From: Bacteroidota bacterium
Lineage (GTDB): Bacteria > Bacteroidota > Bacteroidia > Cytophagales > Microscillaceae
Direction: 5' to 3'
Length of the DNA stretch: 36,277 bases
NCBI GenBank assembly: GCA_004292795.1
Contig: RDXI01000008.1
Coordinates: 1-36,277, forward strand
Shown piece after piece: positions 25,380-34,272 of the stretch. Below the pieces are notes generated by a model that saw only the letters and a program-made list of their open reading frames with translations, was not told where the DNA came from and ran no database searches. Every line of letters starts with the position of its first letter. The stretch's first letter is position 1. A program made the position numbers and the translations under genes.

Positions 25380-26120
25380 TCAATCAAAAAAATCAGGGGG
25401 CAAACGCCTCACAGCAGGCATAGAATGAAGTAACATAGTAAAGGAGGCTTTGCGCGAAAGTAAGTCTTTCAACTCACGTTTTGCCTGTAGTTTTTCTTGG
25501 CTACCCTCTTTAGCATCTTTCCACTCCAAAATTTTGTTCAAAATGTCCATATACTTTTTTTGTATGACGTGCCTTAGTTGGGCTGTTGCTTGTTGTGTAT
25601 CTTTGTCATGTCCATTGTGTACTCTATCCAATAAAGCACAAGTATTTACTGCTTTTTGGTTCGTAGTGTCTTTAGCTTCAAAATAGGGCTTTTCGCCATA
25701 CGCAGACAAACTGTATAAAATTTCCGTTTCGACATCATCTTCGCATGGGTTCAGATAACCTCCTGCGGGTGTTTTGCGTGGTTTGAGCATATTGGCTTGG
25801 TGCGAAGCAGGAAAGAGGTTTGTCCACTCAAACGTCAAATCGGGGCGTTCTGCCTTGCCTACAAAATGCTCAATGTCCATTATCCAAGCATTGACAAATT
25901 TTTCTTCTGTCAAATAACACTTTGAAAAAAAATCTCTGTCAAAGGCTTCCAATAAGTCCGAATTGCGATAAGCAGGTGGTTTTTCGGGTTTGGGAACGGT
26001 AGGATTGTTTGGGTTTTGTTCCTTGTCTTGCAGGTAAGCTATCGCGTCTTGTATGTACGCTTGTATTTCTGCGGTTTGCAAAGAGGCTGGAGCTATGGGG
26101 CTTCTTTGTATGTTTATCAT
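25380..26120 (-). CDS. HNH-type nuclease of a Septu-like (PtuB-like) defence module
   Basis: The 246-aa protein has the layout of TIGR02646/PtuB-like HNH nucleases. A KCYLTEEKFVNAWIMDIEHFVGKAERPD block carries Glu84-His85, DLTFEWTNLFPASHQANMLKP carries Asn101, His107 and Asn110, and GYLNPCEDDVETEILYSL follows. The cysteines that usually bind zinc are mostly replaced (KCY and ASHQAN instead of CxxC), which is unusual. The C-terminal half is helical. Its start overlaps the stop of the ATPase gene by four bases (ATGA), so the pair is co-translated. Nuclease fold is moderately sure; defence role is inferred from context. Confidence 0.68.
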   Translation of the reverse strand: MINIQRSPIAPASLQTAEIQAYIQDAIAYLQDKEQNPNNPTVPKPEKPPAYRNSDLLEAFDRDFFSKCYLTEEKFVNAWIMDIEHFVGKAERPDLTFEWTNLFPASHQANMLKPRKTPAGGYLNPCEDDVETEILYSLSAYGEKPYFEAKDTTNQKAVNTCALLDRVHNGHDKDTQQATAQLRHVIQKKYMDILNKILEWKDAKEGSQEKLQAKRELKDLLSRKASFTMLLHSMPAVRRLPPDFFD

Positions 26121-27328
26121 GCGGATAATGGGGCTTGTAGTTCAATAAGTTGGCTTTCTATTTCGAGGCGTAAAGAAGGCGTAAGGTATTGCTCATTCTC
26201 TATAAACACTTGTTGAAGTTTCGCGGTGTCTTTGGCTTTGATAGCATTATTTACCTCTTCCAAAATGCGGTCTGCCACAGGCGAGAACTCATTTTCTAAT
26301 CCAAAATGTCTTATCATCAGTTCGGAGTAGCTACTACCCACGAGCCAATCCGCCACTTGTTTTTGTGAGGAAAGGTCATAGACTACTGCATTTTTTAAAC
26401 TTGAAATCACAGCAGGCGAGTGTGTGGCAACTATCATTTGCAAGTTAGGAAATAAGCGTGCTATGATAGGCAAGACCTCATACTGCATAGAAATATGCAA
26501 GTGCGTTTCGGGTTCATCTATCAACACAAAACCAGCAGGATTGTAAGCAAAATCGTATTTTTCCTTGCGTATTAAATCCACTCGCATGAACAAATCCATC
26601 AAGATATTCAGGAAAGCTGAAAAGCCATCAGACAATTCGTTGAAAGTGATGCGTCTTCCATCTCCCAAGCGCAAAAAGAACTCAAAATTAGCTTGTTCAA
26701 ACTCAAGTACGAGTTTTTGGTCATGGAAAATATCTCGCAGGGTTTGCGTAAAATTCTCAAAAAAGCGTTCATTTTCTTGTATTTCTTCTTGCCTACCGCC
26801 CAACTGTGCAAAGGCTTGATACACTTTTTTATTGACTAAGTATTGTTTAAAGTTTGCTATAAAAAATTCAGTGCTGTTTTGTGACTGACTAAGCTGATTT
26901 GTAAAATTATCTTGTTTAGTAACAGTATCGACATTTTTTACTACTACTTTTCTGCTTGCTTTAAAGAAAGAAAACAAAAAATCTTTGTTAGCTTGCAAAA
27001 GTTCTTCTTTATAGGTGTACTGAATGTTAATAGCATCAAACTTGTGTAATTCCCTTACCCAATCTTGTATTTGTGGGTGCTTTGGGTTTGATTTTATAAG
27101 TTCTTTAAAATACACTGCTTGATTATTGGGTAAGCCCCCTTGTTTTAAATGAATGAGTAGATGTTCCACTCTATTCAAAATCGTAGTTTTCCCTGAACCA
27201 TTCTTGCCTGTAAGAATAATATGCCTGAACTCGCCTTTGGGCGCGTGGGTGTCTATCCTAAGCCCTTGATAGGCATAGCAATCGTTGATAATCAAACTGC
27301 TGATGTATGGAAATTCGCTGTTTTTCAT
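26117..27328 (-). CDS. ABC/AAA-type ATPase of a Septu-like (PtuA-like) defence module
   Basis: I use the ATG at 27328 (MKNSEFPYISSL). A longer frame begins with TTG and would start inside the promoter. The 403-aa protein has a Walker A motif TGKNGSGKTTILN at 40-52. An ABC-type signature LSDGFSAFLNILMDL follows near 227, then a Walker B in FVLIDEPETHLHISMQ and a switch histidine in IVATHSPAVISSL. This is the AAA_15/AAA_21 architecture of OLD-like and PtuA ATPases. It is translationally coupled to the HNH gene. No reverse transcriptase or retron RNA is seen, so it is not a retron. Septu subtype is not certain. Confidence 0.72.
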   Translation of the reverse strand: MKNSEFPYISSLIINDCYAYQGLRIDTHAPKGEFRHIILTGKNGSGKTTILNRVEHLLIHLKQGGLPNNQAVYFKELIKSNPKHPQIQDWVRELHKFDAINIQYTYKEELLQANKDFLFSFFKASRKVVVKNVDTVTKQDNFTNQLSQSQNSTEFFIANFKQYLVNKKVYQAFAQLGGRQEEIQENERFFENFTQTLRDIFHDQKLVLEFEQANFEFFLRLGDGRRITFNELSDGFSAFLNILMDLFMRVDLIRKEKYDFAYNPAGFVLIDEPETHLHISMQYEVLPIIARLFPNLQMIVATHSPAVISSLKNAVVYDLSSQKQVADWLVGSSYSELMIRHFGLENEFSPVADRILEEVNNAIKAKDTAKLQQVFIENEQYLTPSLRLEIESQLIELQAPLSA

Positions 27329-27332
27329 GGCG

Positions 27333-27340
27333 CAAATATA
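27333..27340 (-). promoter_or_regulatory. -7 box TATATTTG of the ATPase-HNH operon
   Basis: On the - strand TATATTTG is followed by only four bases (CGCC) before ATG at 27326-27328. The mRNA is predicted to be leaderless. Confidence 0.55.
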
Positions 27341-27375
27341 CAAAAAATACTTAAAAAAAAACGCCTAAAACCCCC

Positions 27376-29116: not shown

Positions 29117-29745
29117 TTAGGGGTGTTTGGTGGTGTCGGTGGGGGTAGGCGAGCCTTTGGGCGGTGTCTTGGGAATAAAGAGGCTGTCCAATTTCTTGAT
29201 GTCCTCTTTGCTCTTCAGTCCGTTGGCTTTGAGTATCCATTCAATTTTAGAGCCATATTTTCGCGCAAGTTCTTCTAAATCTTTGGTCGAGAAGTTTTGG
29301 GGCAGTTGGTTTTGGATATGGCTAATTTTTTCGGGGCTAAAAAAACGGTTCATCGCATCTTTCGCTTGGTTTTTCATTGCCTTCAGCTCTTGTATGGTTT
29401 GTTTGGTGTCATCTATAAGTTTCTTAGTTTTTTTGAGTTCAGGCGTTGAGTTCCAAAAATATTGATAGAATTGGTTTTGTAATTCTATCGCTTTCAGGCT
29501 GTCCTTTGCCAAACTGCCACGACTGCCCAAGAAGTTTACATCTTCGAACACTGTTTGCGCCATGACGTATAAAAAAACTACCAAAAATACGCCTCCAAAC
29601 ACTTGAAACAAGGTTTTGCGCAACTTGCCTGCATCATCAGAATTTTCGGTAATGATGAGGTCTTCGTCATCAACTTGGCGTTTTTGTAGGCGAGCTTTGG
29701 GGCGTGGTGTATGCGTTTCTTCCTCGTCTTCAGTGTGCGCTATAG
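29117..29745 (-). CDS. Membrane-anchored extension of the PP2C gene, in the -1 frame
   Basis: This frame is open from the A11 run (29746-29756) to the stop at 29117. Its first part, translated on from the shared DEKKK, reads TIAHTEDEEETHTPRPKARLQKRQ and is an acidic then basic linker. A single membrane helix follows (TLFQVFGGVFLVVFLYVMAQTVF), then a helical, charged domain of about 145 aa (KKTKKLIDDTKQTIQELKAMKNQ and KDLEELARKYGSKIEWILKANGLKSK). No ATG occurs before the middle of the membrane helix. The only separate start would be TTG at 29621-29623, so translation as a continuation of the PP2C protein is more likely. Function of the extension is unknown. Confidence 0.6.
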
Positions 29746-30618
29746 TTTTTTTTTTTCATCTGAAGGGCTTTCAGAAGTAGTTACGCCCAAAGGATTTGTA
29801 TCCGAAAGTTTGTTTGAAGCTATCGGGTTGAAATTGTTGGTATTTTTGGGGAGAGGCGCGGGAGTGTTGCCCACCAAAAACTCTATGAGTTGCACCGTGA
29901 TATTGTCCAAACCTCCCTCTGCATTGGCAGAATTGATGAACAAATGTGCTTTGTCTTGTAGGTCGCGACTCTCGTCGAGTATGCTTTCTATTTCATAATC
30001 CGACAACATACTATTCAAGCCATCGCTACATAACAAAAAGGTATCTTTGATATTAGGCGTGAAAGGCGCGGGGCGCACTTCTACCTCTACTTCTAAGTCT
30101 GTACCCAAAGCACGCAAGATTTCATTACGGCGTGGGTGAACTTCTGCCTCTTCTTCTGTAATAACGCCTTGGTCGACAAGCATTTGCACAAAAGAATGGT
30201 CTTTCGTCAGGCGAGTAAGCAAGCCATCACGATACAAATACAAACGACTATCGCCCACATGACCAATGTAGCACTGCCCCTCACGGTAAATTACCATGAC
30301 GCAGGTAGTACCCATGTTTCTCAAATCGGAACTTGTTTGGGCTTTGTAATAAATTTCTTGATTAGCATATTCTAAGGCTTTTCGGATAGCTTCTCGTGCA
30401 TCACTGATATATTCTTGCTCCAAAAAGTAACGAATAGCTTTGATAGCTGTTTGCGAAGCCACTGCTCCACCAACATGACCGCCCATACCATCACACACCA
30501 CAAACACATAGCCATTGCCATTAGGAGCTTCAAAGAAGCCCATTGCATCTTCGTTTTTTTTACGAGCCTTGCCTATATCCGTGTGATTGGCGAAACGAAA
30601 CTTACCTTCAAATGTCAT
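29740..30618 (-). CDS. PP2C-family protein serine/threonine phosphatase
   Basis: The 292-aa protein is a complete PP2C domain of the Stp/PrpC type that removes phosphate from Ser/Thr. Metal ligands sit in KKNEDAMG (Asp24), VVCDGMGGHVGG (Asp43), TFLLCSDGLNSML and GGLDNITVQL; GHVGDSRLYL and LTKDHSFVQMLVDQG are the usual conserved strands. The domain ends near residue 248 and is followed by a Pro/Asn-rich tail. The reading frame then closes with DEKKKL and a TAG just after an 11-A run. A -1 shift there would join the membrane-anchored extension (29117-29745). No kinase gene is beside it. Confidence 0.88.
   Translation of the reverse strand: MTFEGKFRFANHTDIGKARKKNEDAMGFFEAPNGNGYVFVVCDGMGGHVGGAVASQTAIKAIRYFLEQEYISDAREAIRKALEYANQEIYYKAQTSSDLRNMGTTCVMVIYREGQCYIGHVGDSRLYLYRDGLLTRLTKDHSFVQMLVDQGVITEEEAEVHPRRNEILRALGTDLEVEVEVRPAPFTPNIKDTFLLCSDGLNSMLSDYEIESILDESRDLQDKAHLFINSANAEGGLDNITVQLIEFLVGNTPAPLPKNTNNFNPIASNKLSDTNPLGVTTSESPSDEKKKL
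29746..29756 (-). promoter_or_regulatory. A11 slippery run linking the PP2C frame to a downstream frame
   Basis: On the - strand the sequence is GATG, eleven A residues, then CTATAG. In frame it reads D-E-K-K-K-L-stop. One extra A, or a -1 ribosomal slip, reads D-E-K-K-K-T-I-A-H and continues for about 200 codons. Runs of nine or more A are known sites of transcriptional slippage. Confidence 0.55.
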
Positions 30619-32261: not shown

Positions 32262-33230
32262 ATGAAAACCATAGATTTGTTTGCGGGTATTGGAGGCATA
32301 CGTTTAGGATTTGAGGCTTTTGGCTGTGAAAATGTTTTCACGTCAGAATGGGATAAAGATGCTCAAAAAATGTACGAAGCTAATTTTGGTGAAGTGCCTT
32401 TGGGCGATATTACCCAAATAGCCCCTGATTCTATTCCTGACCACGATATTTTGTTAGCGGGTTTTCCTTGCCAGCCTTTTTCTATCATTGGCAATATGCA
32501 GGGTTTTGCAGATACACGCGGAACGCTGTTTTTCAATATAGAAGAAATTTTGCGTGTCAAACAACCTTATGCTTTTTTATTGGAAAACGTTAAACAATTA
32601 CGTACACACGACTCAGGGCGAACTTTTAAGGTTATTTTAGAAAAATTACAAAACTTAGGTTACTTTGTGCATCACACTATTTTGAACGCCTTAGATTTTG
32701 GCTTGCCTCAAAAACGCGAAAGAACGATTATAGTAGGCTTCAAAGAAGATGTGAGTTTTAAATTCCCTAAACCTGTTGCTGTTGGTTTATCTTTAGAGCA
32801 GATATTAGAGCCTGAAGAAACTATAGATAAAAAATATTTTGCTTCTCAAGACATCAGAGAAAAACGCCTAAAACGCCTCAAGATTAAGCCATTTTATCCT
32901 TCTATTTGGCACGAAAACAAAGGGGGCAATATTTCTGTCTTGCCTTTTTCGTGTGCATTGCGCGCAGGCGGTTCTTACAACTACTTGCTTGTGAATGGCA
33001 AACGCAGATTTTCAGAGCGTGAATTATTGCGCTTACAAGGATTTCCCGATTCATTCAAAATAGCAGTGAGTTATACAGCTATGCGCAAGCTAACGGGCAA
33101 TAGTGTTGCTGTGCCTGTGATGAGAGCAGTAGCGCAAGAAATGATGAAAGCCATACAAGAAAGAAAAATAGTACAAAAATTTCAACAACTAACCCTTTTA
33201 GATGCCGTATATGAATATTCAAACTGCTAA
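32262..33230 (+). CDS. C5-cytosine DNA methyltransferase of a HaeII-type type II RM system
   Basis: The 322-aa enzyme methylates cytosine in the target of the neighbouring nuclease. Motif I FAGIGGIRLGFEAFG (7-21), motif IV GFPCQPFS with the catalytic Cys70, motif VI LLENV at 106-110, motif VIII QKRER at 150-154, motif IX RRFSERELLRLQGFP (about 249-263) and motif X GNSVAVPV are all present. The target recognition region spans about 165-248. The protein begins at motif I with no N-terminal regulatory domain. The gene overlaps the nuclease gene, giving a compact operon. The expected target is RGCGCY, supported by the apparent absence of that sequence in the window. AT-rich composition and lack of the dispersed motif suggest horizontal origin. 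Confidence 0.95.
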   Translation: MKTIDLFAGIGGIRLGFEAFGCENVFTSEWDKDAQKMYEANFGEVPLGDITQIAPDSIPDHDILLAGFPCQPFSIIGNMQGFADTRGTLFFNIEEILRVKQPYAFLLENVKQLRTHDSGRTFKVILEKLQNLGYFVHHTILNALDFGLPQKRERTIIVGFKEDVSFKFPKPVAVGLSLEQILEPEETIDKKYFASQDIREKRLKRLKIKPFYPSIWHENKGGNISVLPFSCALRAGGSYNYLLVNGKRRFSERELLRLQGFPDSFKIAVSYTAMRKLTGNSVAVPVMRAVAQEMMKAIQERKIVQKFQQLTLLDAVYEYSNC

Positions 33231-34272
33231 AGAAGCTCTCGACAAGGTGATTGACAAATCACGAGTTCATCTGTATAAACCCATACAAATTGCCGAAATT
33301 TTGTATAGGGATAGGATTATACAAGATATTACACTTACAGAATTGGAAACATATCGTAACCCATCTAAAAAATGGCGAGATAAAATTTGTGTGCCTTTTC
33401 TGGGTAGGACAAGTACCTCATCTGCAAGGTATCAAGACGACCTTTTTAATGAAAATGCTGTGCCACCTGCTACTTTGGCTGTTTTAGGCAAGGAAAACAA
33501 GAGCAAAAATGGCATTGTAGAAGCCTACATCTATAAACGTTTTGCAGAACGTTTTTCTCAAATGTCTGTTGCTTTAGACTATTGCACTAAACACAGCCCT
33601 CAAACTTTTCAGCTCAATGATTTTTTAGATTTATTTTGGAAAGAAGCAGGTTTGAAGCGTAGCATTGATAAAATCTATGAAATAGTTGTTTACGCGCTAT
33701 TTTCTGCTTTAGTTGAGGTTTTAGAGCTTACTGTTGAGGTATCATACAATCTAGCTAAAGTAAGTATCTTGCAAGAGTTTGGAGATTTCTCAAGTAATGT
33801 CTTGAACTTATCTTCGAATACGCCTCATTTTCAAAGCACAGCGAAAATATACAGAGTCGGAGTAACCAATGCGGCTGATAGAGGAATGGATATGTGGGCA
33901 AACTTTGGCTTGGCAATCCAAATCAAACACCTATCATTAAGCGAAGAGGTAGCGGAAAATATTGTAAATACAATAACTGCTGATAGAATCGTGATTGTGT
34001 GCAAGGAGGTAGAACAAAAAACGATATTATCATTTCTCAATCAATTAGGATGGAAATCTCGCATACAGAGCATTGTTACTGAAAAAGACCTCGTAAATTG
34101 GTATGAAAAGGCTTTGCGAGGCGTATATGCTGAACAAATAGGAAGCAAAGTGTTAGAAATTTTGCAAAATGAAATTCAAGTAGAATTTCCTGCTACAAAA
34201 AATGTTGAATTTGATAGCTTTTTCGAAGGAAGAGAATATCACAGATTGCATGATTCTTTTTGGACTGTATAA
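33202..34272 (+). CDS. HaeII-family type II restriction endonuclease
   Basis: The 356-aa protein starts 29 bases inside the methyltransferase gene (a second in-frame ATG at 33211 is equally possible). It closely resembles HaeII-family nucleases, which I recall as about 350 aa. The putative PD-(D/E)XK core lies at about 225-247 in YRVGVTNAADRGMDMWANF followed by GLAIQIKHLSL, where Asp-x-Trp and the Gln-x-Lys pair would be catalytic. HaeII recognises RGCGCY. The rest is helical without known domains. It is the second gene of the RM operon, and a 13-base gap precedes the acyl-CoA dehydrogenase gene. Confidence 0.85.
   Translation: MPYMNIQTAKEALDKVIDKSRVHLYKPIQIAEILYRDRIIQDITLTELETYRNPSKKWRDKICVPFLGRTSTSSARYQDDLFNENAVPPATLAVLGKENKSKNGIVEAYIYKRFAERFSQMSVALDYCTKHSPQTFQLNDFLDLFWKEAGLKRSIDKIYEIVVYALFSALVEVLELTVEVSYNLAKVSILQEFGDFSSNVLNLSSNTPHFQSTAKIYRVGVTNAADRGMDMWANFGLAIQIKHLSLSEEVAENIVNTITADRIVIVCKEVEQKTILSFLNQLGWKSRIQSIVTEKDLVNWYEKALRGVYAEQIGSKVLEILQNEIQVEFPATKNVEFDSFFEGREYHRLHDSFWTV

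Follow-up and report, generated by a model that had tools for sequence, protein, structure and literature searches.

The locus considered here raises the question of whether a PP2C-type phosphatase gene that closes just past a run of eleven adenines yields a single soluble enzyme, or a membrane-bound protein as well. The gene lies on the minus strand of a window of 36,277 nucleotides (the whole stretch of DNA that was analysed, from contig RDXI01000008.1) in a draft Bacteroidota genome of 4.56 Mb in 430 contigs (G000). We lean towards the view that RNA polymerase slips on the run, and that the gene would thereby give mainly a soluble phosphatase together with a membrane-bound form that ends in a LysM-like domain. 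The features that bear on the question, all in window coordinates, are these:

29740..30618, minus strand: PP2C-type Ser/Thr phosphatase open reading frame (Stp1/IreP family) of 292 aa, ending DEKKKL*, the soluble form from 11 A; identified from the ORF and NCBIfam NF033484
29746..29756, minus strand: A11 run (KKK codons), the proposed slippage site; identified from the sequence, and matched by runs of A9-A12 in this linker in six further genomes of the family
29117..29745, minus strand: tail in the other frame, with linker, membrane helix, coiled region and LysM-like end; identified from its translation, fused homologues and purifying selection
29546..29602, minus strand: membrane helix VFGGVFLVVFLYVMAQTVF, 19 hydrophobic residues, Kyte-Doolittle 2.18
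29168..29290, minus strand: degenerate LysM-like domain; identified from a family profile against the LysM ends of outgroup homologues and against PDB LysM chains

The phosphatase gene and its A11 run

The phosphatase is a member of the Stp1/IreP family, as it passes the curated NCBIfam cut-off for NF033484 (268.5 bits against a cut-off of 230, residues 13-245). The coding strand carries A11 where the plus strand of the window reads T11 (29746-29756), and the 3' end of the gene is GAT GAA AAA AAA AAA CTA TAG (DEKKKL*), with one sense codon between the run and the stop. The original prediction, made from this stretch of DNA alone, held that the PP2C frame closes just past the run and that one extra A, or a -1 slip, opens a frame of some 200 codons with a linker, a helix and a charged region. 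Both points are borne out by the sequence, in which the altered frame continues as DEKKK-TIAHTEDEEE... and stays open for 208 codons to a stop at 29117. With 11 A the stop follows after 1 codon, and with 13 A after about 5 codons.

The run is the longest homopolymer of the 36-kb window, and the coding sequence sampled from the same genome (about 231 kb) contains only three runs of A>=10, namely this one, an A10 in dnaX and an A18 that is a probable artefact. The A18 (L100, G000:C214:5425-5442) replaces about 17 conserved residues of an Xaa-Pro-aminopeptidase-like gene, and artefact-like runs of A17-A19 are met repeatedly in this assembly, both in noncoding sequence and where contigs end. We also note a perfect 6-bp inverted repeat, TCTGAA-AGCCC-TTCAGA (window 29759-29775, minus strand), which ends 2 nt before the A11 run; it was not seen in relatives, and a folding program favours another structure.

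The tail beyond the run

The linker that precedes the helix is charged and lysine-rich. Lysine and arginine are richer on the N-terminal side of the helix, a bias which suggests that the phosphatase would lie on the inner side of the membrane and the tail on the outer side. The tail had been predicted to lack an ATG upstream of the helix, and its first ATG is indeed at 29563, within the helix itself; the earlier near-cognate codons in the tail frame are TTG at 29623, TTG at 29611 and GTG at 29602.

The end of the tail appears to be a LysM-like domain, albeit a degenerate one, and this is an addition to what had been predicted. In outgroup homologues this end is clearly LysM, and a family profile of the tail end matches it (94%, E 1e-7) as well as LysM chains in PDB, and a LysM match at E up to 0.1 is found in 9 of 16 homologues, the best at 2e-17. 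Pfam gave nothing above its cut-off for the window tail alone (LysM 12.5 bits against 20.9).

The comparison of the window genome with its same-genus relative (G001) gives a dN of 0.23 for the PP2C domain and 0.27 for the tail, with synonymous sites that are saturated (the NG86 dS is 4.1 for PP2C and could not be computed for the tail). A dN this low for the tail against saturated synonymous sites argues that it has been maintained as a protein by purifying selection, and its 208 codons are free of any further lesion.

Fused homologues in the family

The gene was found in 12 of the 15 genomes of the family sample. One open frame runs through PP2C, helix and tail in all 10 family homologues that are readable across the junction. 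Complete fused homologues number nine (G001-G007, G011 and G012) and measure 456-579 aa stop-to-stop, with 579 aa in the same-genus relative. The homologue of G010 is continuous at the junction and broken elsewhere in its N-terminal part, and that of G008 reaches the end of its contig while still in the fused frame. A split at the A-run is seen only in the window genome. As all complete family homologues are fused, we regard the fusion as ancestral and the split in the window as derived or apparent.

A comparison with orthologues, fused or split, had been proposed as a check of the original prediction, and orthologues whose tail has a start and promoter of its own were named as evidence against it; every readable family homologue proved to be fused, and none has a separately started tail. 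A search of genome contigs with the PP2C query returned mostly distant Firmicutes and Actinobacteria, which are uninformative about the tail. In the window genome, six or more loci for Hanks-type kinases score above the Pfam cut-off, so kinase partners for the phosphatase are plausible.

Recurrence of the run and tests for selection

A run of A9-A12 is present in the linker in 7 of the 12 family genomes, the window genome included: A12 in G001 and G008, A11 in G000, A10 in G004, G010 and G011, and A9 in G005. Every one of these runs has KKK in frame; the linker itself is poorly conserved, and the KKK positions are not exactly aligned in G004, G005 and G011. The run has been kept in both the window genome and its same-genus relative despite the saturation of synonymous sites. 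The fusion exists without a long run in the other five genomes (G002, G003, G006, G007 and G012), and slippage is thus not essential to the family. The same architecture occurs in 12 genomes that belong to three other families, and none of these has A>=9 at the linker, the maximum being A8.

Long coding A-runs are depleted in these genomes, in which slip-prone runs therefore seem to be costly. Outside the PP2C gene, seven family genomes have 22 coding runs of A>=9 against 57.9 expected from a codon-usage simulation, and 5 of A>=10 against 18.1 expected from the same simulation; several of the sampled contigs had been picked for their long A-runs, which makes the estimate of depletion conservative. 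The linker KKK is written entirely as AAA in 6 of 6 cases as compared to 16 of 61 elsewhere (Fisher 7e-4, or p 4e-3 with the AAA AAA AAG of G010 included), although this comparison, like all the run statistics given here, covers genomes that are related and non-independent. Given the protein and the codon usage of each genome, the runs are not improbable singly (P 0.24-0.74; Fisher combined 0.50). The +1A frame, counted from the fused frame, stops within 5 codons of the run in 7 of 7 genomes, a proximity that reaches only p 0.07-0.22 by a rank-based test, and at the A11-A12 runs the -1A frame also closes at once.

Two negative controls behaved as expected. An A9 KKK run in another gene of G004 recurs in 0 of 13 homologous sequences, and a conserved KKK motif of a photolyase-like protein is kept in three relatives (L221-L223) but has no A>=8 run there. 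With the non-significant codon-usage simulation and the weak stop-proximity test set against the other comparisons, we regard selection for slippage at the PP2C run as likely, though short of proof.

A parallel in dnaX

The dnaX gene of the window genome (L111/L182, G000:C139:8785-9999, minus strand) has an in-frame A10, with other-frame stops 1 and 4 codons away. Of the 15 family genomes, 14 have a run of A9-A11, mostly exactly A10, at this codon of dnaX (loci including L183-L196), and all 8 readable outgroups of the order have an A9-A10 run (further loci L262-L282). In G004, G002 and G005 the tau frame falls out of register at this run, and the long tau product would need an extra A; the dnaX reading frame closes at or soon after the run in G002, G004, G005, G031, G033 and G038, so that a long product would need a slip in all six. 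The broken dnaX genes of G004, G002 and G005 have the same layout as the PP2C gene of the window, and earlier work on split dnaX genes with 10 A attributed them to slippage of the Thermus type (PMC3711429). It appears from these patterns that the order uses A-runs in dnaX for slippage, with two proteins made from one gene; the case for dnaX is likewise comparative, though the run is strongly conserved. A second A10, about 58 codons past the first and with near stops in both other frames, is found in the dnaX genes of G007 and G014 (L185 and L184).

Proposed mechanism and alternatives

When hairpins were sought upstream and downstream of the PP2C run, none was both better than shuffles and shared with the relatives, and Rfam gave no match at the locus. 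The lack of a shared stimulatory hairpin, together with the precedent of tssM1, points to RNA polymerase as the enzyme that would slip. We envisage a gene product in which a lysine-rich linker and a membrane helix connect a cytosolic Stp1/IreP-type phosphatase to a periplasmic, LysM-like end. RNA polymerase would slip on the A9-A12 linker run and produce mRNAs differing in their number of A. In the window organism the unslipped mRNA with 11 A would give the soluble 292-aa phosphatase as the main form, and mRNA with 12 A (or 9) would give a minor, membrane- or cell-wall-associated form of about 500 aa. The ratio would be reversed in the same-genus relative with its 12 A, where the unslipped mRNA would encode the fusion, and mRNA with 11 or 13 A would encode the soluble form, with a stop 0-2 codons past the run. 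The tethered form would be found near the cell wall and the free form in the cytosol. We infer the slippage, its direction and rate, and the use of two forms from sequence.

The claim that slippage makes two forms from this one gene is strengthened by the fused relatives, the recurrent run, the selected tail and the parallel in dnaX, but it has to be amended in one respect: as the fusion is ancestral, a slip would restore or maintain the tail rather than add one. More tentatively, the family may use a selected slippage run, beside the dnaX system of the order, to set how much of its Ser/Thr phosphatase is soluble and how much is tethered to the cell wall, with a default form that flips between relatives (11 against 12 A) while neither product is lost. 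This wider proposal we regard as possible, though short of probable.

There are several other ways to account for the split. The one that survives best, while still rather unlikely in our judgement, is an error of assembly or sequencing, such that the genome really has 12 A as in the same-genus relative and the gene is simply fused in a single frame. The run of that relative is in frame at exactly 12 A, the other homologues are all fused, errors are common in homopolymers of such length, and the assembly carries the A18 artefact in the peptidase gene. However, an inspection of 172 sampled open-frame homopolymers of the window genome turned up no other convincing frame break, and its dnaX A10 is in frame; furthermore, 12 A are also slip-prone, and a correction would remove the split without removing slippage.

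Alternatively, replication slippage between 11 and 12 A might cause phase variation, so that cells would be heritably of a soluble or an anchored type. Long poly-A tracts mutate easily, the two relatives do differ in having A11 and A12, and every length that keeps the phosphatase intact is tolerated. On the other hand, phase variation typically affects genes for surface structures or for modification (PMC3711429), and dnaX, which keeps its A10 in the window genome, offers a transcriptional alternative. We consider phase variation distinctly unlikely.

It is likewise improbable that a recent one-base deletion has become fixed, leaving a soluble phosphatase and a tail that is a decaying remnant. 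The window genome alone is split, and the run is dispensable to judge from the five family genomes without one; yet the 208 codons of the tail show no further lesion and a low dN against saturated synonymous sites, and the break falls exactly within the A11, where a polymerase would be expected to slip.

Joining of the two frames during translation, by -1 ribosomal frameshifting at A AAA AAA, also seems to us to have little probability. Such a heptamer is found inside any A11, and the stop does lie one codon further on, but no downstream structure exceeds shuffles or is common to the relatives, and the fusion is the zero frame in most of them. Finally, a separate translation of the tail from a near-cognate TTG at 29623 or 29611, with no slip at all, is very improbable, for although these codons lie shortly upstream of the helix, the tail exists only within the fusion in all homologues, and a promoter scan found no site just upstream of it, the region holding no more sites than shuffled sequence.

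Neighbouring genes and significance

Elsewhere in the window, adjacent ATPase and HNH-like genes (25380-27343, minus strand) have sub-threshold matches to PtuA/PtuB (retron/Septu) and are possibly a two-gene anti-phage system. On the plus strand, at 32262-34272, a C-5 cytosine DNA methyltransferase that is complete (Pfam 5e-92) overlaps with a 356-aa protein for which NCBIfam gave no match; the two might form a restriction-modification pair.

Mobile elements and secretion systems aside, transcriptional slippage that yields two proteins is known from few cellular genes of bacteria, and none of the papers searched links a bacterial PP2C to transcriptional slippage. Returning to RNA-polymerase slippage as the reading we prefer, the window gene probably joins the known transcriptional-slippage genes as a member of an unusual gene class, with a mechanism that is not itself new. 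If this is true, RNA-polymerase slippage would be tied to Hanks-kinase signalling by way of the phosphatase. Automatic annotation would label the window gene as truncated even though the cell may produce both forms, and slippage would be expected whether the true run is 12 A or varies within the population.

Comparison with known systems

A close precedent is tssM1 of Citrobacter rodentium, in which RNA-polymerase slippage on an A11 run gives about 20% of +1 product with no stimulators near the site, and both of the length variants so made are required (PMC4256274). The window gene is similarly interrupted shortly after an A11, an extra A would similarly yield a C-terminally extended protein, structural stimulators are likewise lacking near the run, and a short and a long variant are predicted here to come from one gene. 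The cases differ in that for tssM1 slippage has been demonstrated, along with the two proteins and the requirement for each, whereas ours concerns a phosphatase and is a comparison of sequences.

The dnaX gene of Thermus thermophilus has an A9 run with transcriptional slippage, and nearby stops end its short product (PMC1088944). The relatives of the window gene resemble it in having the long form in one frame, an A-run that encodes lysines and close stops in the other frames, while the window gene itself has the split-frame layout seen for some dnaX genes with A10 (PMC3711429). The PP2C run (7/12, A9-A12) is, however, less conserved than the dnaX run (14/15, mostly A10).

Among phosphatases, the mycobacterial PstP is a membrane-bound PP2C (PMC12088040), and the predicted long form of the window PP2C would be membrane-tethered as well. 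Unlike Stp1/IreP and PstP, the window protein would have a coiled region followed by a LysM-like end as its tail, and the choice between a soluble and a membrane-bound enzyme would depend on an A-run.
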